In this document: positions 5,062-18,140 of the stretch, one piece after another
Layout of the letters: each line of letters starts with the position of its first letter
How positions within the stretch are numbered: position 1 is the stretch's first letter
From: Bacteroidota bacterium
Lineage (GTDB): Bacteria; Bacteroidota; Bacteroidia; Bacteroidales; Lentimicrobiaceae
NCBI GenBank assembly: GCA_009773455.1
Contig: WSXU01000001.1
Span: forward strand, 312,073-376,072
Reading direction: 5' to 3'
Length of the DNA stretch: 64,000 nucleotides
The notes under the pieces: generated by a model
Database searches by the model: none
What the model was told of the DNA's origin: nothing
Seen by the model: only the letters and a program-made list of their open reading frames with translations
Position numbers and translations under genes: made by a program

Positions 5062-5310
5062 TAATAACGGATTAACTTTGAATAATGGATACCGGTTAAA
5101 AATTTAATCATTGATAAACAAGGGGTAAAAGGGCTCAATAAAAACTGCAATTTTAACAATTTATTGCAGGTTTGGTTATAAATAGTCCAAACTAAATTAA
5201 AATACTGGTATAAAGAGCAGGATACGGTGGATTAATGTGTCAAAAACTTTATCCCGTAGAATAATGCAATTGCGGAAACAGCATTTTTTATATCATTGTC
5301 AGCCACGTTT

Positions 5311-5925
5311 ATGAACGAACACCCATACACAGGTCTTGCTTATTGCCGGATAAGGCTGAAAAACATGGTAAGCAGCAGCTGTGTGAAATATATCAGGCTG
5401 CTGCTCAGCAATGCCGGAGCAGAGGTAAGCATGATCAGGCTGGGGGAGGTCGAATTCGGATACGATCCGTTGCTGCACAGTGAATCCTATTTCACCGAAC
5501 TCATGGCCTCAGAGGGATATGAACCCATTGTCAGCAGGGAAGAACACATCATTGAAAAGACCAAGGCGGCTGTCATTGAGCTGATTCATCATGCAGGCAA
5601 TGTCAACTCCCTGATCCGGAATTCAGATTACCTTGTTGAAAGGCTGGGAATGTCTTATACTTATCTTTCGGCACTTTTTTCCAAATATGAACACATAACG
5701 CTTGAAAAGTTTATCATTCTTCACAAAATTGAAAAAGTAAAGGAGCAACTGGAGTACGGCGAATTTACTTTAAGTGAGATAGCCCTTCAGCTTGGATACA
5801 GCTCGGTGCAGTATCTCTCAAACCAGTTTAAACTGGTAACCGGTATTTCTGTCAGTGATTACAAGAAATCTGAAAGTACCCGGATACCACTGGAACTCCT
5901 GGGAAAAATCAATCAGGATATATAG
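5311..5925 (+). CDS. AraC-family regulator with degenerate HMA-like N-domain
   Basis: A 204-residue transcription factor. The C-terminal half is an AraC/XylS double helix-turn-helix (LVERLGMSYTYLSALFSKYE, then LSEIALQLGYSSVQYLSNQF). The N-terminal 75 residues resemble a ferredoxin-like HMA domain found in a Bacteroidota AraC subfamily whose usual motif is NMVCxxC. Here the motif is NMVSSSC (residues 18-24), so the first metal-ligand cysteine is serine and only Cys24 remains. The ATG at 5311 is preferred over a TTG five codons earlier. It stands alone, 155 bp before the PqqD-like cluster on the same strand, and might regulate it. Function is inferred from family. Confidence 0.85.
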   Translation: MNEHPYTGLAYCRIRLKNMVSSSCVKYIRLLLSNAGAEVSMIRLGEVEFGYDPLLHSESYFTELMASEGYEPIVSREEHIIEKTKAAVIELIHHAGNVNSLIRNSDYLVERLGMSYTYLSALFSKYEHITLEKFIILHKIEKVKEQLEYGEFTLSEIALQLGYSSVQYLSNQFKLVTGISVSDYKKSESTRIPLELLGKINQDI

Positions 5926-6080: not shown

Positions 6081-6341
6081 ATGAAAATAAATGAGAACCT
6101 TGCCATCAGCGAGAGTGGATTTCTTTTCAATCCATCTACGGGTGAATCCTTTACCGTAAACCCGATCGGGGCTGAGATTATCGAGTTGATGAAGGAAGGA
6201 AAAACCGAAGCGGAAATCTCAGAAAAAATAATCAAATCCTACGAAGTGGATATTAAAACCCTTCAGAAAGACCTGCATGATTTCTCCGAAATATTAAGGC
6301 ATCACCAGCTGCTTGATCAGTATGAAGAAACAAAGAATTAA
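6081..6341 (+). CDS. PqqD-family small peptide-binding protein
   Basis: An 86-residue cytoplasmic protein with the PqqD/RRE pattern: a short beta hairpin (ISESGFLFNPSTGESFTVNP) followed by helices (GAEIIELMKEGKTEAEISEK). Known PqqD-like domains bind leader segments of peptides and pass them to modifying enzymes. It overlaps the ATP-grasp gene by 20 bp, and the PLP decarboxylase follows, so the three are almost certainly co-transcribed and translationally coupled. No radical SAM enzyme and no short precursor gene is seen beside it, unlike PQQ or most RiPP loci. The fold assignment is good. Its partner is unknown and could be the N-terminus of the decarboxylase. Confidence 0.82.
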   Translation: MKINENLAISESGFLFNPSTGESFTVNPIGAEIIELMKEGKTEAEISEKIIKSYEVDIKTLQKDLHDFSEILRHHQLLDQYEETKN

Positions 6342-7368
6342 TATAGGGGTAACCGGCCTGAATGCCATCGATAGTCCCGGCCCCGGAATTGCCGTGATCA
6401 GAGGCCTGCGCGAAGCCAAATCCTTCGATGTCAGAATCATCGGCTTTGCCTATGAATCTATGGAGCCCGGCATATATATGCATGATCTGATCGATAAAAC
6501 CTACCAGATTCCCTATCCTTCTGCCGGAACGGATGTGCTGCTTGCGAGGCTCGCCTATATTCAGGAACAGGAGAAACTTGATGTGATTATTCCAAATTTT
6601 GATGCAGAGCTGTATTCTTTCATGAAGCTGGAAGACAAGCTCAGGCAGATGGGAATTCATATGTTTCTGCCTACCATCAGTCAGTTTGAAGAACGTCATA
6701 AAGTGAACCTTTCTGATTTTGGTGAGAAGTACGAAATTGATGTACCGCTTGGAAAAGCCATTTACGATTCATCCGAGATTTTCGGATTACAAAAGGAATT
6801 TGACTTTCCCCTTATGGTTAAAGGGAAATGGTATGATGCCTACATTGCCTATAACATGGAGCAGGCCCGTACTTACTTTAATAAAATCAGTGCAAAATGG
6901 GGACTTCCTGTGGTATTACAGCGTTTCGTGCATGGTACTGAGTATAATGTGACCGGATTGGGTGATGGTAACGGAAATACAATTGCGGCAGTTCCCATGC
7001 GCAAGCAGTTTATCACGGATAAAGGGAAAGCCTGGGCTGGTATCAGCATCGACGATAAAAAGCTGCTGGCCATTACCGAGAAGTTTGTGAGCGCTACCAA
7101 ATGGAGAGGAGCTTTTGAACTTGAGATGATGAAATCGAATGACAACACTTACTATCTGATGGAGATCAATCCACGCATTCCTGCCTGGGTCTATCTGGCA
7201 GTCGGCGTTGGTCAGAATATTCCGGAAGCGCTCACCAACCTTGCTCTTGGAAACGATGTTGAGCCTTTCAGGACCTATGAAGTCGGCAAACTCTTCATAA
7301 GGTATTCGTACGATATGATTGTCGACAGGTCTGAATTTGAAAAAATATCAATAAACGGAGAACTCTGA
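6322..7368 (+). CDS. ATP-grasp ligase
   Basis: A 348-residue ATP-grasp enzyme, a family that joins a carboxylate to an amine, thiol or other acceptor through an acyl-phosphate. The N-domain starts with a nucleotide-binding-like strand (INIGVTGLNAIDSPGPGIAV) similar to carbamoyl-phosphate-synthase-type proteins. The ATP-binding lysine is in PLMVKGKWYDAYIA (about residue 164), and the Mg/ATP site is FELEMM...YLMEINPRIPAW (about 264-285). The ATG at 6322 overlaps the PqqD-like gene; a TTG three codons earlier is possible. The stop lies 16 bp before the decarboxylase start. The substrate is unknown. The context suggests an amino acid or peptide carboxylate. Confidence 0.88.
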   Translation: MKKQRINIGVTGLNAIDSPGPGIAVIRGLREAKSFDVRIIGFAYESMEPGIYMHDLIDKTYQIPYPSAGTDVLLARLAYIQEQEKLDVIIPNFDAELYSFMKLEDKLRQMGIHMFLPTISQFEERHKVNLSDFGEKYEIDVPLGKAIYDSSEIFGLQKEFDFPLMVKGKWYDAYIAYNMEQARTYFNKISAKWGLPVVLQRFVHGTEYNVTGLGDGNGNTIAAVPMRKQFITDKGKAWAGISIDDKKLLAITEKFVSATKWRGAFELEMMKSNDNTYYLMEINPRIPAWVYLAVGVGQNIPEALTNLALGNDVEPFRTYEVGKLFIRYSYDMIVDRSEFEKISINGEL

Positions 7369-7384
7369 AAATAATAATCTGCAC

Positions 7385-8740
7385 ATGGAAAAGAAAAGAT
7401 ATGAACGTCCGCACATTGTGAAACTTGATTCGGGAATGCCCGGTAAGTTTGGTATGCGTAACGATTCACCCCCTACTACCCACATTGACGGGGTAGCTGT
7501 TACGGAACTGGTTGAAAAGTACGGTTCTCCCCTGTTCGTCATTTCGGAGCATACCATCCGTTCCACTTATCGCAAGGCTTACAAAGCCTTCAGTACCCGC
7601 TATCCGAAAGTACAGTTTGCCTGGTCATACAAAACAAACTATTTACCGGCCGTATGCAACGTATTTCACCAGGAAGGATCCTGGGCTGAGGTTGTCTCGG
7701 GCTTTGAGTATGACAAAGCACTTGCCAACGGCGTTGATCCCGGGAAAATCATTTTTAACGGTCCGGGGAAGACAGCATCAGAACTGATGAAAGCGGCAGA
7801 AAACGGGTCACTGATCCACATTGACCACCTGGATGAACTTTATTTGCTTACTGACCTGGCCGGGGAGATGAAAAGAAAACCACTGGTCGCCATCAGGGTT
7901 AATATGGATACGGGAATATATCCGATGTGGGACCGTTTCGGATTTAACTATGAGAACGGACAAGCCTGGGATGCCCTCAATAAGATTATGCTGAGCGGCA
8001 AACTTGAACTGGTGGGCCTGCATACGCACATCGGGACTTTTATCCTCGGAGCCAATGCCTACGGAGTGGCTGCGTCGAAGCTGGCCGATCTGGCGCTCGG
8101 ACTGCAGCAGAAGTTCAACCATACCATCCGGTATATCGATATGGGCGGAGGTTTTGCTTCGAAAAACACCCTGAAAGGATCGTATCTGCCGGGGGCCGAC
8201 ACCAACCCGACCTTTGATGATTATGCTGAAGCCATTACCACGGCACTGGTCAACAGCGGGTTCAAGCCGGAAAGTCTTCCTTTGCTTATTCTCGAAACAG
8301 GCAGGGCCCTGATTGATGAAGCGGGTTACATCATCACCTCCGTACTGGCCAATAAAAGACTATCGACAGGACGCAGGGCGACCATCATCGATGCAGGAGT
8401 CAATCTGCTCTTTACAGCTTTCTGGTACCAGCACCCGGTTACTCCTGCACAGGGTTTCTCACAGTACCGGGAGGAGAACACCATTTACGGGCCACTCTGT
8501 ATGAACATAGATTGTGTAAGGGAAAGCATCAACCTTCCCTTGTTGAACAAGGGGGATAAACTGGTGATTCATTATACAGGGGCCTATAACCTGACCCAAT
8601 GGATGCAGTTTATTACGCTCAGGCCAAATGTAGTCATCATTGATCCTGATGGAACGGCTCACCTGATTCGACAGAACGAAAGCAATGACTCCGTTTCATC
8701 ACTCGAGAAAACCCCTGATTACCTGATAGGTATAAAATAA
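7385..8740 (+). CDS. Fold-III PLP-dependent decarboxylase (DAP/ornithine decarboxylase-like)
   Basis: A 451-residue alanine-racemase-fold decarboxylase. The PLP Schiff-base lysine is Lys83 in FAWSYKTN (compare YAVKAN in LysA). The PLP phosphate loop is DMGGGF (near 253), the substrate/PLP region ETGRALIDEAG, and the dimer-contributed cysteine is in GPLCMNID (near 371). These mark an L-amino-acid or amino-acid-derived decarboxylase, not a racemase. The first 23 residues precede the barrel and read Y6-E-R-P9-H-I11...L14, similar to the YxxPxL motif of RRE-recognised leader peptides. It is the third gene of the PqqD/ATP-grasp cluster. It is unlikely to be the housekeeping LysA, given this context and the divergent lysine motif. 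The substrate is unknown. Confidence 0.88.
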   Translation: MEKKRYERPHIVKLDSGMPGKFGMRNDSPPTTHIDGVAVTELVEKYGSPLFVISEHTIRSTYRKAYKAFSTRYPKVQFAWSYKTNYLPAVCNVFHQEGSWAEVVSGFEYDKALANGVDPGKIIFNGPGKTASELMKAAENGSLIHIDHLDELYLLTDLAGEMKRKPLVAIRVNMDTGIYPMWDRFGFNYENGQAWDALNKIMLSGKLELVGLHTHIGTFILGANAYGVAASKLADLALGLQQKFNHTIRYIDMGGGFASKNTLKGSYLPGADTNPTFDDYAEAITTALVNSGFKPESLPLLILETGRALIDEAGYIITSVLANKRLSTGRRATIIDAGVNLLFTAFWYQHPVTPAQGFSQYREENTIYGPLCMNIDCVRESINLPLLNKGDKLVIHYTGAYNLTQWMQFITLRPNVVIIDPDGTAHLIRQNESNDSVSSLEKTPDYLIGIK

Positions 8741-8897
8741 ATGTATTAAATCTATTGCAGACTCATACAAAATTTATACTTTTATGAACTCAAATTTAAA
8801 TATTTCGATACCTGGCCGCATAAAAAGCGGGTTTCCCTAAATTAAAAAGGGCGTTCCGGGTATTGATTGAAAATATCAGAATATAAACCAGGGCTGG

Positions 8898-9473
8898 ATG
8901 ATACATTTTTCCGATCGGGCTATCGTCGAAGGGCTTAAGCTAAATAGTGATTTCATCATCAAGCACGTTTATCAGGAATTTTTTCCAACCATCAGATACC
9001 TGATCAAGAAGAATACCGGCAATGATGAAGATGCCGAAGACATTTTCCAGGAATCGCTGATTGTTATTCTTAAAAATGTCCAGAAAGATGATTTTTATCT
9101 GACCTGCTCCTTCCTCACTTACCTCTATTCTATCAGCCGCAATCTCTGGATGCAGCGGTTAAAGGTCAAAAGAAAAGGTGTAACCAGTTTCGATCTGATT
9201 GAGAAATTCTTCAACATACCCGAATCGGCTACAAGAGAAGCCGCTGAAAATGAGCAGACAAAGTATCGCATCTATCGGGAGCATTTCAACGCGATGGAAA
9301 AAGACTGCCAGCGTATACTTCTCCTCTCCCTTCAGAAATTCTCTTCCAAAGAAATAGCCGACACTATGGGCTATGGGTCTGAAAATTATGCCAAAACCAA
9401 GAAGTACAATTGCAAAGAGCGGTTAAAAAAGGCAATCATGAGCGACCCCAGGATGCGGGACTTCATCGAATAA
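8898..9473 (+). CDS. ECF-type RNA polymerase sigma factor
   Basis: A 191-residue sigma-70 family protein of extracytoplasmic-function size. Region 2 shows DAEDIFQESLIVILKN and SFLTYLYSISRNLWMQRL. Region 4 shows KEIADTMGYGSENYAKTKKY followed by CKERL. There is no anti-sigma factor gene next to it. The next gene starts 36 bp downstream and encodes the urea-channel/M23 fusion, so sigma, channel, YaiO-like and TPR genes look like one operon. The sigma factor probably controls its own operon, though no matching promoter pair was found. In Bacteroidota such factors without an adjacent anti-sigma are common. Confidence 0.9.
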   Translation: MIHFSDRAIVEGLKLNSDFIIKHVYQEFFPTIRYLIKKNTGNDEDAEDIFQESLIVILKNVQKDDFYLTCSFLTYLYSISRNLWMQRLKVKRKGVTSFDLIEKFFNIPESATREAAENEQTKYRIYREHFNAMEKDCQRILLLSLQKFSSKEIADTMGYGSENYAKTKKYNCKERLKKAIMSDPRMRDFIE

Positions 9474-9509
9474 TTACAACATCTGATTTTTTTCCTGAAC
9501 CAACCTGTC

Positions 9510-11702
9510 ATGCTTAAATCGGAAAAGCTGCTAAACGAAATATTTACCAGTTCCCTGAACAGCTATTCGATGGTTTTCTTCTCGAAAAACCATCTGCTGG
9601 CTGTAATTCTGATTCTGGTTTCGTTTTTTGACATTTATTCGGGACTGGCCGGGTTACTGTCTGTATTGTCAGCCAATCTGATGGCCCGGTTCCTGGGCCT
9701 TAACCACTATAACATAGCCAGCGGCTTTTATGGTTTTAATGCCCTGCTGGTTGGTCTGGGTCTGGGCATCGCCATTCAGCCGTCGCTGCACTTTTTTGCC
9801 ATTTTATTGTTTGTTGCCATTACCACGCTGTTTTTATCCATTGCATTTGAAGGGATTATGGGCAAATACGGGCTCCCATACCTCACCATTCCCTTTCTCC
9901 TGTCCATCTGGCTGGCTGAACTTGCCATCAGAAGTTATACGAAACTCCAACCAAGTGAAGCCGGTATATATACCATGAATACCATGTATGCCCGCGGCGG
10001 GGATACAATCCTGCAGATCTACAACTGGTTCGGCGATGTTGGCTGGCCTCTGGCAATAAAGACATATTTCAAGTCACTTGGCGCCATCTTTTTCCAGTAC
10101 CACTTACTTGCCGGCCTGCTGATTGCTGCCGGTCTGCTGATTTATTCAAGGATTGCCTTCCTGCTTTCATTGCTTGGTTTTGGTGCTGCCTGGCTGTTCT
10201 ATCTCCTGATTGGTGCCAATATGCATGAACTTGATTATGGTTTTATCGGATTTAACCACATTCTCACAGCAATTGCACTGGGTGGGTTTTTTATGATAGC
10301 CTCAAAGTGGTCAATGCTTTGGGTGCTGGTGCTCACCCCGATTGTCTCTGTTGTTATCACCGGGACGTCGGCTTTACTCTTACCCTATCAGCTTACCGTT
10401 TATTCTTTACCCTTTAATGCCGTAGTGCTGGTATTCCTTTATGCCATGAAATTCAGGGAACGCATGCTGCTTAAACCCGAAACGGTTGTTGTCCAGCATT
10501 TTTCACCTGAAGAGAATCTCTATTCGGGTATGAATGCCCGTGAGAGATTCAGAAATCAGCTATACATGCAATTCGGCCTTCCTTTCTATGGTGTCTGGCA
10601 GGTCAGTCAGGGCCACAACGGAGAACACACACACCGCGATGACTGGAAAGAAGCCTGGGACTTCGTGGTTTGTGACGAAAATAATTCTGAATTCAGCGGA
10701 GATGGCTCCAAAACAGAGGACTATTTCTGTTTTGGCAAACCTGTGCTGGCTCCGGCCGATGGCTGGATTGAAGAGGTGGTTGATATGATTGAGGATAATG
10801 AGCCGGGAGATTACAATCTCGATCAGAACTGGGGAAATACAATCATCATTAAACACGCGGAAGGCCTGTATACAAAACTGTGCCACCTGAAAAAACAAAG
10901 CGTCCTATTCCCAAGGGGAACCTTTGTATATAAAGGTCAGATCATTGCCTTATGCGGGAATTCAGGCCGGTCACCTTTCCCTCACCTGCACTTCCAGTTT
11001 CAGTCAACGCCGTTTATCGGCTCGCGTACTTTGAATTACCCCTTCGCACAATACATCATCAGCAACATCAATTATTCTCTCCGCTTGATCGGTATTCCCG
11101 AGGAAAGACAACTTGTTCAGAACATTGAACCAGACCCGGCCCTGACAGAAGCTTTTAATTTCGTACCCGGGGAAGTTATCACCTATACCATCGATGACTC
11201 TGATGAAATAAAAGGCTCGTGGAGCATCCAGACCGATATGCTGAACAACCGTTACCTTGAATGCAGAACAACCGGAGCAAAAGCCTATTTCAGGTATGAA
11301 GGCAGGCTTTTCTACTTCACTCATTTTAAAGGTTCCAAAAAAAGCCTCCTCTTCAACTTTTATATGGCAGCCTATAAAGTACCGCTGGGATTTTATAAAG
11401 ATATGCCCGTTGAAGATGTTTTTCCACCTACTATATTGAAAACAGGTTTACTCAGGTTGCTACAGGATGTTGTTTCACCTTTTGTTTTATTCCTGAAACC
11501 GACATACAAACTGACCTACCGTGATCGTGATTTACTGATTTCCGGCAGCAGGATCAATCTTCAATCGGCTTGCAAACTGAGGGTAGCTGGCAATGAAATT
11601 GCCAACTGGTCGTTTAATCTCGGTATATCAGACAATAAGCTGCAATCGCTGGATATAAAAACAGGCAATACCCGGCACAAGGCCATCTTTAAATACCGCT
11701 GA
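9510..11702 (+). CDS. Urea-transporter-like channel fused to M23 metallopeptidase
   Basis: A 730-residue two-domain membrane protein. Residues about 20-320 contain at least nine hydrophobic segments and two mirrored motifs, GFYGFNALLVGLGLG and GFIGFNHILTAIALGG, as expected for the internally duplicated urea transporter (UT) fold. Residues about 355-500 are a lysostaphin-type M23 endopeptidase: EHTHRDDW...AWDF, KPVLAPADGWIEEV, GQIIALCGNSG, and the zinc motif HLHFQF. The last 200 residues are beta-rich and not recognised. M23 enzymes cut peptidoglycan cross-links, so this half should face the periplasm. Seven bases separate it from the YaiO-like gene. The transported solute is unknown; UT relatives pass urea and similar small amides. 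Confidence 0.85.
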   Translation: MLKSEKLLNEIFTSSLNSYSMVFFSKNHLLAVILILVSFFDIYSGLAGLLSVLSANLMARFLGLNHYNIASGFYGFNALLVGLGLGIAIQPSLHFFAILLFVAITTLFLSIAFEGIMGKYGLPYLTIPFLLSIWLAELAIRSYTKLQPSEAGIYTMNTMYARGGDTILQIYNWFGDVGWPLAIKTYFKSLGAIFFQYHLLAGLLIAAGLLIYSRIAFLLSLLGFGAAWLFYLLIGANMHELDYGFIGFNHILTAIALGGFFMIASKWSMLWVLVLTPIVSVVITGTSALLLPYQLTVYSLPFNAVVLVFLYAMKFRERMLLKPETVVVQHFSPEENLYSGMNARERFRNQLYMQFGLPFYGVWQVSQGHNGEHTHRDDWKEAWDFVVCDENNSEFSGDGSKTEDYFCFGKPVLAPADGWIEEVVDMIEDNEPGDYNLDQNWGNTIIIKHAEGLYTKLCHLKKQSVLFPRGTFVYKGQIIALCGNSGRSPFPHLHFQFQSTPFIGSRTLNYPFAQYIISNINYSLRLIGIPEERQLVQNIEPDPALTEAFNFVPGEVITYTIDDSDEIKGSWSIQTDMLNNRYLECRTTGAKAYFRYEGRLFYFTHFKGSKKSLLFNFYMAAYKVPLGFYKDMPVEDVFPPTILKTGLLRLLQDVVSPFVLFLKPTYKLTYRDRDLLISGSRINLQSACKLRVAGNEIANWSFNLGISDNKLQSLDIKTGNTRHKAIFKYR

Positions 11703-11709
11703 TCTGATT

Positions 11710-13056
11710 ATGAAAAAGCTATGGGCCCTGTGCATACAATTTAATCTGCTGCTTTTGGTGATGGTATCGTTTGAAGCATCCGCGGGTGAATTGAATTACG
11801 AGACCCTCACATTACGCCTATACAACGAACAGAAGTGGGACAGCCTGATTTTGGTTGGTGAAGAGGCCATCGGTAAAGGATTTGACTATTATTATATGCG
11901 GGTGAGGGTTGGCACTGCTGCATTCGAAAAACAACGTTATATAAAGGCCATACGGCATCTTGAAAAGGCCATTCAGTTCAATAGTTTTGATCCTTATCCT
12001 TACCGGTTGCTATATAAGGCTTATCAATACAGCAGCAGGAATAATGAAGCCCGGCTATTGCTGAAGAAGATGCCTGCGGGATCAGGAATAACCGACCACC
12101 GGCCATTGCTGTACATTGAAGCGGGACCAGCGTTCACCAATCATGTAGCGGCATATAACGAAAATAAACAAACAGACCCGGGAACCTATTCAGAGGTATA
12201 CCTGAACCGTAATTCACAGTATTTCCTGGCCGGAATTGCCCAGCCCATCGGCCGCCGATACCAGGTTCAGGCTGCTGCGGCCCGGCTCAATTTCAATAAA
12301 CGAAGAATTGTTAACATCAATTATTATGATCCGAACACCGGAACTCTTTATCCCATTGACTCCCTCTTGGGAGATTACAACGTTTCGGAATGGGAATTTT
12401 ATCTTTCACCAACGGTAATCCTGAATAAGCATTTCAGCATCAGCCCTGCCTTCAGACTGGTTAACGTAACCCTGGAAAACCCACTGGTAAGTGAGGATTC
12501 TATAGTAAGCCGGCTGATCGGCCCTGCCGGAAAAATGGATTACAACGATTACGCCGGAGGCGGAGAGGTAAGTTACCAAAACGCCTATGGTTCACTGTCG
12601 GCAGGTGTATGGTGGATTCATGTCGATAAATTGGATTTTACCCAGATTTCAGGAACACTTTTTTTAACACCGTTTGGTAACCTGAATCTCTATTCTTCAA
12701 GCACCCTGAGCCAGAAAACCGGTGAGTCGGAAAGCACATACACATTTAACCAGATGATCGGCGGGAGGGTATTCCGTAAATTGTGGGCAGAGGTATTTTA
12801 TACCTGGGGCGACTTGTCGGAAAGTACTGAACAAAATGCCCAGGTAATCTACAATGCCTTTGACGTCACAACAAGCCGCACGGGTTCAAAGTTAATACTC
12901 AACATCAGTGATTATCTGAAATTCAGCATAAGATACCAGGTTTTTTTCAGGGAAGGAACCGAACTCTTTTACCCGGCAGAGGGCCCGCCTGCTATTTTTA
13001 CCTACAATTACATCAATCAAAGCATCACAGGAGGAATCACATGGAAATTACAATGA
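11710..13056 (+). CDS. YaiO-like outer membrane beta-barrel protein with TPR N-domain
   Basis: A 448-residue exported protein. The signal peptide is roughly residues 1-25 (LLLLVMVSFEASAG). Residues 30-125 form TPR-like helices (YIKAIRHLEKAIQFNSFDPY). From about 140 on the sequence alternates in short amphipathic strands rich in Y, N, S and T and ends in an aromatic strand (SITGGITWKLQ), as in outer membrane barrels of the YaiO family. It sits 7 bp after the channel/M23 gene, and its stop overlaps the next start by 4 bp (ATGA). The barrel call comes from pattern, not from a strong motif. The function is unknown; a structural or export role in the envelope fits the operon. Confidence 0.72.
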   Translation: MKKLWALCIQFNLLLLVMVSFEASAGELNYETLTLRLYNEQKWDSLILVGEEAIGKGFDYYYMRVRVGTAAFEKQRYIKAIRHLEKAIQFNSFDPYPYRLLYKAYQYSSRNNEARLLLKKMPAGSGITDHRPLLYIEAGPAFTNHVAAYNENKQTDPGTYSEVYLNRNSQYFLAGIAQPIGRRYQVQAAAARLNFNKRRIVNINYYDPNTGTLYPIDSLLGDYNVSEWEFYLSPTVILNKHFSISPAFRLVNVTLENPLVSEDSIVSRLIGPAGKMDYNDYAGGGEVSYQNAYGSLSAGVWWIHVDKLDFTQISGTLFLTPFGNLNLYSSSTLSQKTGESESTYTFNQMIGGRVFRKLWAEVFYTWGDLSESTEQNAQVIYNAFDVTTSRTGSKLILNISDYLKFSIRYQVFFREGTELFYPAEGPPAIFTYNYINQSITGGITWKLQ

Positions 13057-13670
13057 AAAAAACCAAATCAGCACTGGCAGTGTTGCTGATTATCATAAGT
13101 CAAAGCCTCTACGCCCAGGATAAATCATCGCTTTCAGATATATTCAGCGCATCCTACACTTATGAAACCAGCGGAGAATATACGAAAGCTGCTGAAGTTA
13201 TTAAAAAGGTTTATGATGAATCATCCTACGAGATTAACCTCCGCCTGGGCTGGCTTACCTACAAGGCAGGCTTGTTCTCTGAATCCACCGCCTATTATAA
13301 CAAGGCCATTGATCTGCTTCCCCTTTCCATCGAAGCTCGGCTGGGATATGTAATGCCTGCCTCCTCTGCAGGAAACTGGGACCAGGTGGTAACCAGGTAC
13401 AATGAGGTCCTGAAACTTGATCCGAACCATTACACTGTCAATTACAGGATGGGTCTGATATACTACGGGCGGAAAGACTACCAGGCAGCTTTCAGGTATT
13501 TTGAAAAAATTGCCAACCTTTATCCGTTTGATTACGATGCCCTGCTGATGCTGGGCTGGACGGAATACCAGATGGGGAAACTGAGAGAAGCCAAGGTATT
13601 GTTTCAAAAAGCCCTGCTGAACAGGCCGGGCGATAGTTCTGCTCTTGAAGGAATAAGCCTGATCAAGTAG
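13053..13670 (+). CDS. Periplasmic TPR-repeat protein
   Basis: A 205-residue protein with a signal peptide (MKKTKSALAVLLIIISQSLY, cut after AQ). It has four to five TPR units (ASYTYETSGEYTKAAEVIKK, LDPNHYTVNYRMGLIYYGRK, PFDYDALLMLGWTEYQMGK). The ATG at 13053 overlaps the previous stop as ATGA and puts the signal peptide at the very N-terminus; an ATG four codons earlier is less likely. It is the last gene of the sigma/channel/YaiO operon. TPR proteins usually bind other proteins, so a scaffold for the envelope complex is plausible but inferred. Confidence 0.88.
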   Translation: MKKTKSALAVLLIIISQSLYAQDKSSLSDIFSASYTYETSGEYTKAAEVIKKVYDESSYEINLRLGWLTYKAGLFSESTAYYNKAIDLLPLSIEARLGYVMPASSAGNWDQVVTRYNEVLKLDPNHYTVNYRMGLIYYGRKDYQAAFRYFEKIANLYPFDYDALLMLGWTEYQMGKLREAKVLFQKALLNRPGDSSALEGISLIK

Positions 13671-13799: not shown

Positions 13800-16700
13800 A
13801 TGTTAAACAGAATTATCCGGTTCAGTATAAGTAATAAACTGATCATTGTACTCTTTACTTTATCTGTTTCTGCCTTTGGTATTTATGCACTATTAAATAT
13901 ACCTGTCGGTGCTGTTCCTGACATCACAAACAATCAGGTACAAGTTATTACCACTTCCGGCAATCTTTCAACCCAGGATGTTGAACAGTTTATTACGTAC
14001 CCGGTTGAACTTGAGATGGCTAACCTACCTGGTGTTAAAGAGATCAGGTCGGTTTCAAAGTTTGGGCTTTCGGTAGTCACCATCGTTTTTGACGACAAAT
14101 TGGGCACGTACCTGCCCCGGCAACTCATTGCTGAAAAGATTAAGAATGCCTCGGCAAATATCCCCGAAGGATTTGGCACTCCGGAAATGGGACCAATTAC
14201 AACAGGACTTGGCGAAATATATCAGTATATACTCGATACAAAACCCGGTTATGAAACCCTTTACAGTCCGATGGAATTACGCACAATTCAGGATTGGGTT
14301 GTCAAACGGCAATTGTCTGGTATCTCCGGTGTAGTTGAAATTAATACCTGGGGCGGCTATCTGAAACAATATGAAGTGGCAGTAAATCCATCAACGCTTA
14401 ACGCTGCCGGAATCAGCATAGGTGATGTTTATGAAGCCATCTCCAAAAACAACAGTGTAGCAGGAGGTGCCTACATCGAAAAACAGCAGGAGGTCTATTT
14501 TGTCAGGGGTGAAGGTTTGATAAAATCGATCGGTGATATTGAAGCAATTGTTGTGAAAAACAAGAATGGCATACCTGTTTTGGTTGGGGATATTGCGAAA
14601 GTTCAATTCGGGCATGCCAACCGTTTTGGCGCCATCACCGGCAATGGCCAGGGAGAAAAGGTGTTGGGTCAGATTATGATGTTGAAAAATGCCAATTCAA
14701 ACATTGTAATCACTGAAGTTAAGGACAGGGTTGCCGAAATACAAAAAACCCTGCCAGAAGGTGTTTTTATCAATCCCGTGCTTGAACGCAGTGAGCTCAT
14801 TGCAAAAACAACTTTTACTGTATCAGAAAACCTGATCCTGGGTTGTCTGATTGTGATTTTTGTAGTTGTATTGCTACTGGGCAATATCCGGTCAGGGATG
14901 GTCATTGCATCCCTCATTCCGCTATCCCTGCTGTTTACCATTTCCTTGATGTATATCTTCGGTATTGATGCCAACCTGATGAGTCTGGGAGCCATTGACT
15001 TTGGGATTATTATTGACGGTGCCGTGATTATTGTTGAATTTATTGCTTTGCGCCTGACGGTTGCCAGTGATGAACTGGCCGCTACGGCAGGAGAAAACAG
15101 GCAACAACTGATCGATAAAGTAACTTTTGAAGGCGCATCCAAAATGATGAATTCAGCTATTTTCGGGCAGTTTATTATCCTTCTGGTTTTCATTCCAATC
15201 CTTTCATTAAGTGGTGTTGAAGGTAAAATGTTCAGGCCAATGGCGCTCTCGTTCAGTTTTGCCCTGGCAGGTGCTATACTTTTCTGCCTAACCTGGCTTC
15301 CCGTTGCAGCCTCCTTGTTTCTGAAACCTGAAAAAGAGGGAAAAAGAAACATATCAAAATGGATCATGAATGTTGCATACCGGAGTTACAGACCTGTTAT
15401 CGCATGGTCGTATGATCATAAATCAATCATCTTTGGCAGTGCATTGGCATCCCTGGTGCTGGTCGGGGTTTTGTATGCGCGAATGGGTGGCGAATTTGTT
15501 CCAACCCTGGATGAAGGCGACTTCGTAATACAGCCGGTACTGAAGACCGGGACATCGCTTTCCAGAACCATTGAACTTACCACTCAGATGGAAAAAATTC
15601 TGATTGAGAAATTCCCTGAAGTTGACCAGATTGTAAGTCGTATCGGAGCAGCAGAGGTACCTACTGATCCTATGTCGATGGAGGAAAGTGACATCATTAT
15701 TAAATTAAAACCAAAAAAGGAATGGGTATCAGCCGGTAGTAAAGATGAACTGGCCGATCAGTTCAAAGAGGCCCTCTCGGTTATTCCCGGAATTGAATAC
15801 GAATTCACCCAACCGATAGAAATGCGGTTCAACGAACTGATTACAGGTGTCAGAGCCGATGTGGCTATAAAGATTTTCGGAGATGATCTGAAAGTGCTAA
15901 ACGAAAAAGCTTATGAAGTAAAACGGCTTATTGAAAATGTGGATGGAGCTGCAGATGTAATTGTAGAAAAAACAGACGGACTGCCACAGATGAGTGTTAA
16001 GTATAAGCGCGGGAAACTGGCCCGTTATGGTTTGAATGCCGAAGATCTCAACAGTATAGTATCGGCCGGATTTGGTGGTGCGGTTGCGGGAACAGTTTTT
16101 GAAGGAGAGAAACGGTTCGACCTTGTACTTCGTATTCAGAAAGACCTGCGAAAAGGCATTGAGAATCTCGAAAACCTCAGGATTAACCTTTCTGACGGTC
16201 AGCTGGTCCCATTGAATGAACTTGCCGATATTACTTATACAACCGGCCCTGCAAAGATATCACGCGACAATACTCACCGTCGGGTAGTAGTTAGCATCAA
16301 CGTAAGAAACCGGGATATGGAATCAGTTGTTAAAGATATAGAAAGCATTCTGGATAAAAAACTAAAACTACCTCCCGGTTATTCTGTTGCCTATGGTGGG
16401 CAATTCGAAAATCTGCGCACCGCCACATCCAGACTTAAGATTGCTGTTCCGGTCGCATTACTCCTGATTTTTGTTTTCCTTCACTTTGCTTTTGGTTCAT
16501 TTAAAGAAGCTGCCATGGTATTCTCGGCCATTCCGCTGGCAACTGTTGGCGGAGTGCTCCTGCTCTGGATAAGGGGAATGCCATTTAGTATTTCGGCCGG
16601 GGTTGGCTTTATTGCCCTTTTTGGAATTGCTGTATTAAATGGAATTGTATTGATAGAACACCTGAAAGAATTAAAAGCAAATGGCATCATCGATATGCGT

Positions 16701-18140
16701 GAACGAATCATGACCGGCACTCTGCAGCGCCTGAGACCAGTCATTTTGACTGCAGCGTCTGCAGCGCTTGGATTTCTTCCGATGGCCTTATCCACATCAG
16801 CTGGTGCTGAAGTACAGCGACCATTGGCTACCGTCGTAATCGGAGGCCTGATAACATCAACAATGCTTACTATGCTCGCGCTACCTTTACTTTACGCTGT
16901 ATTTGATCAGTTCTCCGGAATACGCAGGTGGCCTTTCAGGTTAAAAAGAAACACCAGTGTATTATTACTGCTCATCTTTCCCGGCATCGGCACTTTTGCT
17001 CAGAATCTGGCCGTAAGTCCTGATAAGGCAGTGGCTATTGCTCTGCACAATAACCGTGAACTTAAAGCCGATAGTCTGCGGGCTGTTCAGTTTAAAACTG
17101 CTTTACCCGGAGCTGGTTCACTTGGAAAAACAAATATCTATTATGGCTACGACAAGAACAATGTCGCAGAAAACGGGAAACCACTCCACATCATCGGCGC
17201 AGAGCAATCTTTCGGTTTCCCTTCATTGCTGCTGGCACAACGCAAAACCGGAAAAGCTGAATTACGACTTGCCGAAGCCAGGTACAATCTTGCAAAGCTT
17301 CGGCTGAGCAAATTGGTCCTTCAGACCAGCTATCAACTGCTCTATCTGCAAAACAAGCAACAGCGGTATCAGTATCTCGATAGTATTTATTCCGGCTTTT
17401 CATATGCAGCCAGACAACGATACGAAAAAGGTGAAAGCAATTACCTTGAAATGCTCAACGCACAGTCGAAACATGAGCAACTCCGAATCCGGTTAAAACA
17501 GATAGAAATTGAAACAAATCAGGCTCTGTCGGCACTTCAGCAATTGTTACAATGCGATACCACTGTAACGCTCACTTTCACTAACCTTCCTCAATTGATT
17601 TTAACAGATAAATCATTGAGCCCAAACCCTATGGCAGAGTTATATGCCTCTTCCACACAGGTTCAGAAATCAAAACTCAGCGAAGAACGTAACACTCTTA
17701 TGCCTGATATCACCCTTTCAATATTCAACGGAACAAATACTTACGCGGGCTCAAAAAACTATATGGGTTATCAGGCTGGCTTTACATTACCACTCATCTA
17801 TAGTGGGCAGAGGTCAAAAATCAAAACAGCCAGAATAGGCTATGAACTGGCCCTTTCAGAGGAAGAGAGCTCCTCACGACAGCTTGCTGCCAGAAAAGCA
17901 TCCCTTCAATTCGAATTGGAAAAATACAGCACATCAGTAAACTACTTTAAACAAAGTGGGAGCAAACTCGCTTCCGAGATTTACCGGACAGCCCGGCATA
18001 GCTATCAACAAGGAGAAATCGACTTGTTTCAATTAATCATGAGTATTGAGACAGCCACAGAAACAGAACTGAATTATCTGGATAATCTTGCCGAGTACAA
18101 CCGTATTGTACTGGATATAAATTTTTTAATCATCAATTGA
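13800..18140 (+). CDS. CzcA-type heavy metal RND pump fused to TolC/CzcC-like domain
   Basis: A 1446-residue fusion. Residues 1-1040 are an HME-RND pump that exports divalent metal using the proton gradient. The TM4 signature DFGIIIDGAVIIVE matches the HME1 (Zn/Co/Cd, CzcA) pattern, apart from phenylalanine where the usual asparagine follows. At about 1045-1067 a hydrophobic stretch ending in a signal-peptidase-like GTFAQ leads into a TolC/CzcC-like outer membrane factor domain (1068-1446; KAVAIALHNNRELKADSL, RLSKLVLQTSYQLLYLQ). Such fusions are known in Bacteroidota. The leftover signal-peptide-like segment may act as a cleavage site or as an extra membrane helix. The adaptor gene follows 6 bp later. 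Confidence 0.92.
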   Translation: MLNRIIRFSISNKLIIVLFTLSVSAFGIYALLNIPVGAVPDITNNQVQVITTSGNLSTQDVEQFITYPVELEMANLPGVKEIRSVSKFGLSVVTIVFDDKLGTYLPRQLIAEKIKNASANIPEGFGTPEMGPITTGLGEIYQYILDTKPGYETLYSPMELRTIQDWVVKRQLSGISGVVEINTWGGYLKQYEVAVNPSTLNAAGISIGDVYEAISKNNSVAGGAYIEKQQEVYFVRGEGLIKSIGDIEAIVVKNKNGIPVLVGDIAKVQFGHANRFGAITGNGQGEKVLGQIMMLKNANSNIVITEVKDRVAEIQKTLPEGVFINPVLERSELIAKTTFTVSENLILGCLIVIFVVVLLLGNIRSGMVIASLIPLSLLFTISLMYIFGIDANLMSLGAIDFGIIIDGAVIIVEFIALRLTVASDELAATAGENRQQLIDKVTFEGASKMMNSAIFGQFIILLVFIPILSLSGVEGKMFRPMALSFSFALAGAILFCLTWLPVAASLFLKPEKEGKRNISKWIMNVAYRSYRPVIAWSYDHKSIIFGSALASLVLVGVLYARMGGEFVPTLDEGDFVIQPVLKTGTSLSRTIELTTQMEKILIEKFPEVDQIVSRIGAAEVPTDPMSMEESDIIIKLKPKKEWVSAGSKDELADQFKEALSVIPGIEYEFTQPIEMRFNELITGVRADVAIKIFGDDLKVLNEKAYEVKRLIENVDGAADVIVEKTDGLPQMSVKYKRGKLARYGLNAEDLNSIVSAGFGGAVAGTVFEGEKRFDLVLRIQKDLRKGIENLENLRINLSDGQLVPLNELADITYTTGPAKISRDNTHRRVVVSINVRNRDMESVVKDIESILDKKLKLPPGYSVAYGGQFENLRTATSRLKIAVPVALLLIFVFLHFAFGSFKEAAMVFSAIPLATVGGVLLLWIRGMPFSISAGVGFIALFGIAVLNGIVLIEHLKELKANGIIDMRERIMTGTLQRLRPVILTAASAALGFLPMALSTSAGAEVQRPLATVVIGGLITSTMLTMLALPLLYAVFDQFSGIRRWPFRLKRNTSVLLLLIFPGIGTFAQNLAVSPDKAVAIALHNNRELKADSLRAVQFKTALPGAGSLGKTNIYYGYDKNNVAENGKPLHIIGAEQSFGFPSLLLAQRKTGKAELRLAEARYNLAKLRLSKLVLQTSYQLLYLQNKQQRYQYLDSIYSGFSYAARQRYEKGESNYLEMLNAQSKHEQLRIRLKQIEIETNQALSALQQLLQCDTTVTLTFTNLPQLILTDKSLSPNPMAELYASSTQVQKSKLSEERNTLMPDITLSIFNGTNTYAGSKNYMGYQAGFTLPLIYSGQRSKIKTARIGYELALSEEESSSRQLAARKASLQFELEKYSTSVNYFKQSGSKLASEIYRTARHSYQQGEIDLFQLIMSIETATETELNYLDNLAEYNRIVLDINFLIIN

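Follow-up and report, generated by a model that had tools for sequence, protein, structure and literature searches.

What does a PqqD-type RiPP recognition element (RRE; RiPP, ribosomally synthesized and post-translationally modified peptide) bind when no precursor peptide gene is recognised beside it? The question is raised by a locus in a 64,000-nucleotide (nt) stretch of the genome of a Bacteroidota bacterium of the Lentimicrobiaceae (assembly GCA_009773455.1, contig WSXU01000001.1, positions 312,073 to 376,072), hereafter the window, in which genes for a PqqD-type RRE, an ATP-grasp ligase and a fold-III pyridoxal phosphate (PLP) decarboxylase follow one another. These three genes are half of a conserved six-gene cassette, widespread in the Bacteroidota and located here at window positions 6081–13670. 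The other three encode, in this order, a fusion of a urea transporter (UT) fold with an M23 metallopeptidase, a protein combining tetratricopeptide repeats (TPR) with an outer-membrane barrel, and a TPR protein. We consider it fairly probable that this is a biosynthesis-and-export cassette whose RRE docks the decarboxylase via a leader-like tag on the enzyme's own N-terminus.

The decarboxylase tail and its predicted partner

Loci were fetched around the ATP-grasp gene, and open frames of all three genes were found in 258 of 278 of them, which indicates that the linkage is non-random. The linkage assumed in the preliminary description of the locus, which was made from the window's sequence and covered the first three genes, was thus observed in nearly all loci examined. 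No decarboxylase frame was present in 13 of the 278 loci (seven were inspected at first) and no PqqD frame in seven; among the latter, inspection revealed a contig end in one case (L094) and a PqqD gene located 1.9 kb away in another (L155). Removal of duplicates left 214 distinct loci, of which 213 had a readable decarboxylase N-terminus (L086 was removed).

In most of the printed alignments, residues 1 to 26–32 of the decarboxylase precede the part that aligns with its homologues among the decarboxylases. In all 213 usable distinct enzymes this tail contains the pattern [Y/F]xxPx[I/L/V], followed by a Lys residue 12 residues after the Pro. Position 6 is occupied by Tyr (167 loci) or Phe (46 loci), P9, I/L/V11 and K21 were found in all 213 loci and G23 in 210, and there are no gaps between positions 9 and 21. 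The strict pattern [YF]xxPx[ILV] was found upstream of the catalytic domain in 0/31 non-cassette homologues, and looser patterns starting with W or L were found in 4/31. We presume that the tail resembles the fusilassin leader. Discrete lasso RREs are described as binding the motif [Y/W]xxPx[L/V/I/F/A] in the available part of PMC13381572, and YxxP is placed in the RRE cleft in that of PMC12710340. Judged by its sequence, the decarboxylase tail is of the leader motif type bound by lasso-peptide RREs, which are kin of the PqqD protein of the window.

The PqqD protein was classified as a discrete RRE by the family test, its closest solved chains being the lasso RREs TbiB1 (E 3e-13) and TfuB1 (E 1.7e-8), and it has the residues expected for YxxP contact. 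In LppB, D70 and N33 are reported to form hydrogen bonds at the Tyr and around the Pro of the motif, and F74 to pack on the Pro (PMC13381572). A gap-free alignment attributed N33, D70 and F74 of LppB to N27, D64 and F68 of PqqD; N27 was found in 213/213 loci and F68 in 209/213. Ten further positions of the hydrophobic LppB pocket, T30 included, were compared. Eight of them are hydrophobic in 198–213 of the 213 cassette PqqD rows, and the other two, PqqD positions 29 and 57, in 162 and 1 of the rows, respectively.

The residue at PqqD position 64 was found to change together with tail position 6. The 167 Tyr tails are accompanied by Asp (150), Asn (15) or His (2), and the 46 Phe tails by Tyr (29), Ser (12), Ala (4) or His (1), with Asp or Asn in 0/46 (Fisher p 9e-45, a value that ignores relatedness). 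Column 64 splits Tyr from Phe tails at 99.1%, compared with 84.5% for the next of 82 columns and 78.4% for a constant guess of Tyr. In the opposite direction, tail position 6 was the best predictor of PqqD 64 among the 451 decarboxylase columns minus the gappy ones (balanced accuracy 0.979; next 0.887). The same rule holds in four further loci that are not among the 213 and have an unlinked decarboxylase or inserted genes (Tyr/Asp in G043, G369 and G314; Tyr/Asn in G407). On trees holding 105 or 104 of the 213 rows, tail residue 6 changes 7–8 times, at least four times on supported branches. In the four supported independent pairs, PqqD 64 agrees in 2.9 (3.9 if His is counted as a hydrogen-bonding partner) and disagrees in 0; five control columns agree in 0.5–1.4 of the four pairs, and three of these also disagree, in 0.1–0.8.

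What the sequences show directly is the cassette, the decarboxylase tail, the contact residues of the RRE and their covariation. From the lasso-type motif of the tail, the retained contact residues and the covariation we infer that PqqD most likely docks the tail of the decarboxylase, its predicted partner. The preliminary description had offered PqqD the role of carrier or recruiter. The recruiter role fits the likely tail target, and a covalent carrier is unlikely because the PqqD C-terminus is variable and the protein lacks an invariant Lys, Cys or Ser. A BtrI-like or LysW-like PqqD would be loaded with an amino acid by the ATP-grasp enzyme and would hold it during decarboxylation. The butirosin proteins BtrI and BtrK offer a precedent (PMC7857480, in the part available), a plasmid relative of the decarboxylase in Rahnella is clustered with a phosphopantetheine protein, and Ser10 (199/213) and Ser23 (198/213) of PqqD are nearly invariant. 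Against this, Ser23 is replaced by Thr in 14/213 rows and the C-termini differ in both length and letters, on which ground LysW-like loading through the C-terminus was rejected. No acyl carrier protein was found among the cassette families, judged by the members in the window, and PqqD has no invariant Ser. Carriage on PqqD is therefore considered very improbable.

In the stretch of up to 900 nt preceding pqqD we recognised no conserved small open reading frame (ORF), a search that did not extend to the region 3' of the last gene or to the rest of the genome. The larger groups of short frames upstream of pqqD were attributed to araC or a rodA/ftsW-like gene translated out of frame, and a precursor peptide adjoining pqqD was rejected on this basis; a few small groups remain, one with IKFYTSF-like frames in four loci. 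The near-zero gaps inside the cassette leave scant room for a precursor gene. The statement of the preliminary description that none is nearby is in agreement with these results. They also bear on a classical RiPP pathway with an unlinked precursor, in which the RRE would bind a separate peptide, the ATP-grasp enzyme and the decarboxylase would modify it and the M23 domain would trim it, the likeness of the tail being a coincidence or a form of regulatory mimicry. According to the available part of PMC12710340, precursor peptides are the usual ligands of RREs, and an M23 peptidase is present in the cassette. However, such a pathway leaves the invariant tail and its covariation with PqqD 64 unexplained, and we regard it as rather unlikely.

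Several observations weigh against the docking of the decarboxylase by PqqD or against the export function. None of ten tails matched an NCBIfam leader family. Three of the ten (two being the window's own tail) matched PF19397, presumably a family of lasso-type leaders, below the cut-off (E 0.045–0.053), and no known NCBIfam or Pfam leader family was adopted as a name for the tail. In a whole-genome search, the decarboxylase tail ranked third (E 1.26). The position corresponding to LppB V63 is acidic in most cassette PqqD rows. With the best column of the ATP-grasp enzyme, PqqD 64 is predicted at a balanced accuracy of 0.909, and columns other than the tail also track phylogeny. The tree-corrected covariation is underpowered, with a median sign-test p of 0.25 (0.125 counting His), because fewer than six pairs cannot reach 0.05. 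In one genome of 99% completeness (G576), the ATP-grasp and PqqD genes are present and the cassette decarboxylase was not found. As for export, the cytoplasmic placement of the M23 domain is read from charges and homology only, and the transporter or the peptidase could serve another step.

Makeup and distribution of the cassette

Table 1. Features of the cassette and its surroundings in the window.
Feature	Position	Strand	Evidence and remarks
AraC-type regulator	5296..5925	+	HTH_18; family in 43/101 loci
PqqD-type discrete RRE, 86 amino acids (aa), ATG start	6081..6341	+	PF05402, 50.3 bits (cut-off 23.4)
ATP-grasp ligase, 348 aa	6322..7368	+	PF15632, 38.1 bits (cut-off 29.1)
Fold-III PLP decarboxylase, 451 aa, probably conjugate-type	7385..8740	+	PF02784/PF00278; Orn_Arg_deC_N, 106.8 bits (cut-off 23.4)
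Leader-like N-terminal tail of the decarboxylase, residues 1–23	7385..7453	+	Y6-E-R-P9-H-I11, K21, G23
Extracytoplasmic function (ECF) sigma factor	8898..9473	+	between decarboxylase and transporter; 9/101 loci
UT fold (residues 13–312), M23 metallopeptidase (409–498) and C-terminal region, 730 aa	9510..11702	+	PF03253, PF01551
TPR and outer-membrane beta-barrel protein, 448 aa	11710..13056	+	AlphaFold2, Foldseek
TPR protein, 209 aa, last conserved cassette gene	13041..13670	+	TPR Pfam models; family in 70/101 loci

The pqqD and ATP-grasp genes overlap by 20 nt if ATG 6322 is taken as the start of the latter (the listed TTG 6313 is a mechanical call), and 16 nt separate the ATP-grasp gene from the decarboxylase gene. 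The compact spacing given in the preliminary description agrees with these values, and its family calls for all three genes were borne out by Pfam models scoring above the curated cut-offs. Its three-gene unit was right in genes and linkage but overlooked the UT/M23 fusion, the TPR/outer-membrane protein and the TPR protein. Clustering of frames of at least 70 aa around 101 loci, some of them duplicates of one genome and some at contig ends, revealed the families of the ATP-grasp enzyme (100 loci), the decarboxylase (95), the UT/M23 fusion (88), PqqD (84, a count lowered by the frame picker losing small genes), the TPR/outer-membrane protein (75), the TPR protein (70, some of the other 31 loci ending at contig ends) and the AraC-type regulator (43), the next family being present in 12. 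The median gap was 28 nt between the decarboxylase and transporter genes (83 loci), -4 nt between the transporter and barrel genes (73 loci) and -13 nt between the barrel and TPR genes (67 loci). The eight largest gaps 5' of the transporter gene are insertions of 0.95–3.1 kb.

Co-occurrence across Bacteroidota, a check that the preliminary description proposed for its three families, was examined for the ATP-grasp, decarboxylase and transporter-peptidase genes in one draw of 296 genomes that are at least 90% complete. Of these, 27 carry the ATP-grasp gene, and the identical 27 carry the decarboxylase gene. The transporter-peptidase was found in the same 27 genomes (some matches are partial or contain a stop), and five other genomes match by M23 alone. 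According to the coordinates, the three genes adjoin one another in 27/27 genomes. Among 60 relatives, 32 match the ATP-grasp enzyme at E 1e-5, most with 58–92% identity over nearly the full length; these 32 include a short end piece (G002), a split gene (G009) and a match at only 27% identity (G021). A search of viral contigs did not find a relative of the ATP-grasp enzyme, and plasmid searches yielded distant relatives only, all below 60% identity. In the window's order, the ATP-grasp gene is present in 154 of 393 sampled genomes, and a widespread bacterial metabolite and a route across the envelope may thus be undescribed. No recognisable paper on the cassette was found in a search of open-access literature.

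Enzymes of the cassette and their possible substrates

The best solved match of the decarboxylase is the N-citrylornithine decarboxylase FigC/FslC, with 263 bits, whereas the highest-scoring diaminopimelate enzyme reaches 195. A profile of the cassette decarboxylases gave at least 580 bits for 123 frames from cassettes and at most 170 for 31 other homologues. In a tree of 49 rows, all 18 from the cassette fall into a single group (99/99) apart from LysA-like and arginine-decarboxylase-like rows, which were named by size and sequence, and the sister of the cassette group is uncertain owing to long branches. The position of the enzyme apart from housekeeping decarboxylases, on which the preliminary description had made its case depend, is thus supported by a tree that holds LysA-like and arginine-decarboxylase-like groups and no ornithine decarboxylases. 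An alignment of 23 cassette members shows no variation at the PLP lysine K83, at H215, in the Gly loop or at E304, R307 and C372.

The specificity-helix Arg of diaminopimelate decarboxylase (DAPDC), taken as R343 of PMC7857480 with the numbering not reconciled, is replaced by Thr344 in 200/201 cassette rows, in alignment with T327 of FigC. The residue following the catalytic Cys is Met in 201/201 rows, as in FigC, in place of the acidic residue of DAPDC. The citrate contacts H357 and R387 of FigC correspond to I375 (201 rows) and Q405 (199 rows). The available part of PMC7857480 describes a clade with no polyamine role that comprises FigC, SbnH, AcsE, MccE and BtrK as well as DAPDC and D-ODC, several of its members acting on conjugates. 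The residue pattern, similar to FigC without its citrate contacts, suggests that the substrate of the cassette decarboxylase is probably a conjugate, although not a citryl one. The enzyme scored 216.6 bits with the NCBIfam FslC model, below the cut-off of 500.

A second DAPDC, with the linkage reflecting lysine metabolism, was also considered. The TIGR01048 model of LysA gave 221.1 bits, below its cut-off of 297.9 and still the point in favor of this assignment, together with five genomes of the window's genus in which two PF02784 proteins were found, neither of them evidently LysA. Nevertheless, both the Arg of the specificity helix and the acidic neighbour of the catalytic Cys are replaced, and the cassette rows are separated from the LysA-like ones in the tree. 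Moreover, several cassette genomes encode a further PF02784 protein that scores strongly and has the size of LysA, and one genome of the same order (G019) has neither the cassette nor such a protein. A role as housekeeping LysA was rejected on the sub-cut-off score, the separate tree group and the replaced specificity residues, and we attribute a very low probability to a second DAPDC. In the five genomes (G000, G001, G011, G012 and G017; 95–97% complete), the PF02784 protein other than the cassette enzyme has 468–492 aa and looks like a short arginine decarboxylase, and no LysA was evident among their PF02784 proteins.

The closest solved chains of the ATP-grasp ligase are large chains of carbamoyl-phosphate synthase, and NCBIfam models of carbamoyl-phosphate-synthase-like proteins scored below their cut-offs. 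A plasmid relative of the decarboxylase in Streptomyces is located two genes away from an ATP-grasp gene.

Envelope proteins and the proposed route

Both PF03253 and PF01551 were found in 26/26 aligned members of the transporter-peptidase family. H375, D384, H459, H492 and H494, which we take to be the zinc-binding or catalytic His/Asp residues of M23, are invariant in the 26 members. Lys and Arg residues are found at the N-terminal end, in every second loop and directly after the last helix, a pattern which places both termini in the cytoplasm; the M23 domain is thus probably cytosolic and not a wall hydrolase. At E 1e-15, the plasmid matches of this protein were one Thermus and six haloarchaeal M23 proteins (H51–H57), and haloarchaea are not known to have murein. 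A second-repeat Glu and a Thr of the bacterial urea channel, presumably its pore residues, are aligned with the invariant Ala192 and with Ser299, respectively. Replacement of the Glu by Ala suggests that the cargo may be other than urea.

The AlphaFold2 model of the barrel protein (mean pLDDT 86.2) consists of a helical N-terminus followed by about 14 long strands. TPR Pfam models each match at most 5/26 members of this family and do not match the window's own protein. The best Foldseek match of the model was FadL (E 6.8e-12, TMq 0.44).

The cassette seems to build a small product and to move it across the cell envelope. In the proposed mechanism, the RRE would hold the decarboxylase tail so that the ATP-grasp enzyme and the decarboxylase act as one complex. 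The ligase would link an amino acid to an acceptor, and the decarboxylase would strip the alpha-carboxylate of the conjugate, leaving an amine. The M23 domain, predicted to face the cytoplasm beside a urea-channel-like pore, would then cut a peptide or amide bond and release the product, which would exit via this pore and the TPR/outer-membrane barrel. The ligated group, an acceptor role of Lys21, the M23 cut and the direction of transport are speculative.

The flow could also be inward, with the barrel and the urea-channel-like protein importing a small amide that is then hydrolysed, conjugated and decarboxylated. The top-ranked solved folds of the barrel are the uptake channels FadL and TodX, and UT proteins are channels. 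Yet the model-normalised TM-scores are at most 0.44 among the 50 matches listed, the TPR-plus-barrel architecture occurs in exporters, and the RRE/ligase pair suggests biosynthesis. Uptake or salvage is accordingly judged improbable, though less so than carriage on PqqD.

Within a route of biosynthesis and export, the tail might itself serve as the carrier. Lys21 has a fixed spacing from the tail motif and lies near where a lasso core would begin. While the RRE grips YxxP, the ATP-grasp enzyme would load an amino acid by its side-chain carboxylate onto Lys21, the appended residue would be decarboxylated in the PLP site of the same enzyme or of its partner, and the M23 domain would clip off the product for export. 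This variant is tentative, and we give it somewhat more room than uptake or a classical RiPP pathway. If true, the catalyst would come with its own ribosomal carrier.

None of the hallmarks tested for the RiPP, lasso, LysA, FslC and BtrIJK families was found in the cassette. The lasso/LPP pathways with a discrete RRE (TbiB1, TfuB1/FusB1 and LppB) have the same RRE family and the [Y/W]xxPx[hydrophobic] motif, and the same Asn, Asp and Phe contacts with Tyr paired to Asp are described for them in the available part of PMC13381572. Unlike in these pathways, the cassette motif is the N-terminus of a PLP enzyme of about 450 aa, not of a short precursor, and no B2 peptidase or macrolactam synthetase was seen among the conserved cassette families. 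A lasso B2 peptidase and an asparagine-synthetase-like cyclase were not seen in the eight scanned window genes, with no further common family among the 101 loci. In butirosin synthesis, BtrJ is presumably the ATP-grasp counterpart of the cassette ligase. BtrI and BtrK provide the likeness of a fold-III decarboxylase working on a bound amino acid (PMC7857480, in part); in contrast to that system, the cassette has no acyl carrier protein and contains an RRE, a transporter-peptidase fusion and an outer-membrane pair. The decarboxylase resembles FigC/FslC, SbnH, AcsE and MccE, polyamine-unrelated decarboxylases of conjugated amino acids, and shares with FigC the Met after the catalytic Cys, whereas Ile and Gln in place of H357 and R387 of FigC and the unique N-terminal tail set it apart.

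A precursor fused to its own modifying enzyme is known, from partly available sources, in the borosin RiPPs; these have a methyltransferase and a C-terminal core, unlike the N-terminal tag on a decarboxylase and the separate RRE found here. Decarboxylation on a peptide with the help of an RRE is described for daptides (PMC10036551, in part). The decarboxylase of daptides is oxidative and NAD(P)-dependent, and these systems, unlike the cassette, have a true precursor peptide. To our knowledge, no known system combines all parts of the cassette, though each part has relatives. RRE-guided mining for natural products seeks a nearby precursor, and a cassette in which the partner is the tail of an enzyme would escape it. 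If the docking of the decarboxylase by PqqD is true, the RRE-leader pair would be reusable as a docking device or a built-in carrier.

Several genes were found beside the cassette or inserted into it. The ECF sigma factor is outside the general cassette: its loci (two are the same contig) all belong to the window's genus, where only some loci have it, and its identity of 83–96% is above that of the neighbouring genes. Between the decarboxylase and the transporter, an ORF of 276–318 aa, eIF2B/sugar-phosphate isomerase-like by eye, is inserted in five loci (L066, L074, L080, L089 and L095), and a histidine-kinase-like gene together with a class I aminotransferase-like gene, also assigned by eye, in two (L093 and L124). 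The AraC-type gene upstream of pqqD is a frequent neighbour and possibly a local regulator; by eye, its N-terminal stretch resembles a metal-binding HMA domain in some relatives. Further downstream, window positions 13800–18140 include what looks by eye like a fusion of a CusA-like efflux gene with an outer-membrane efflux part.

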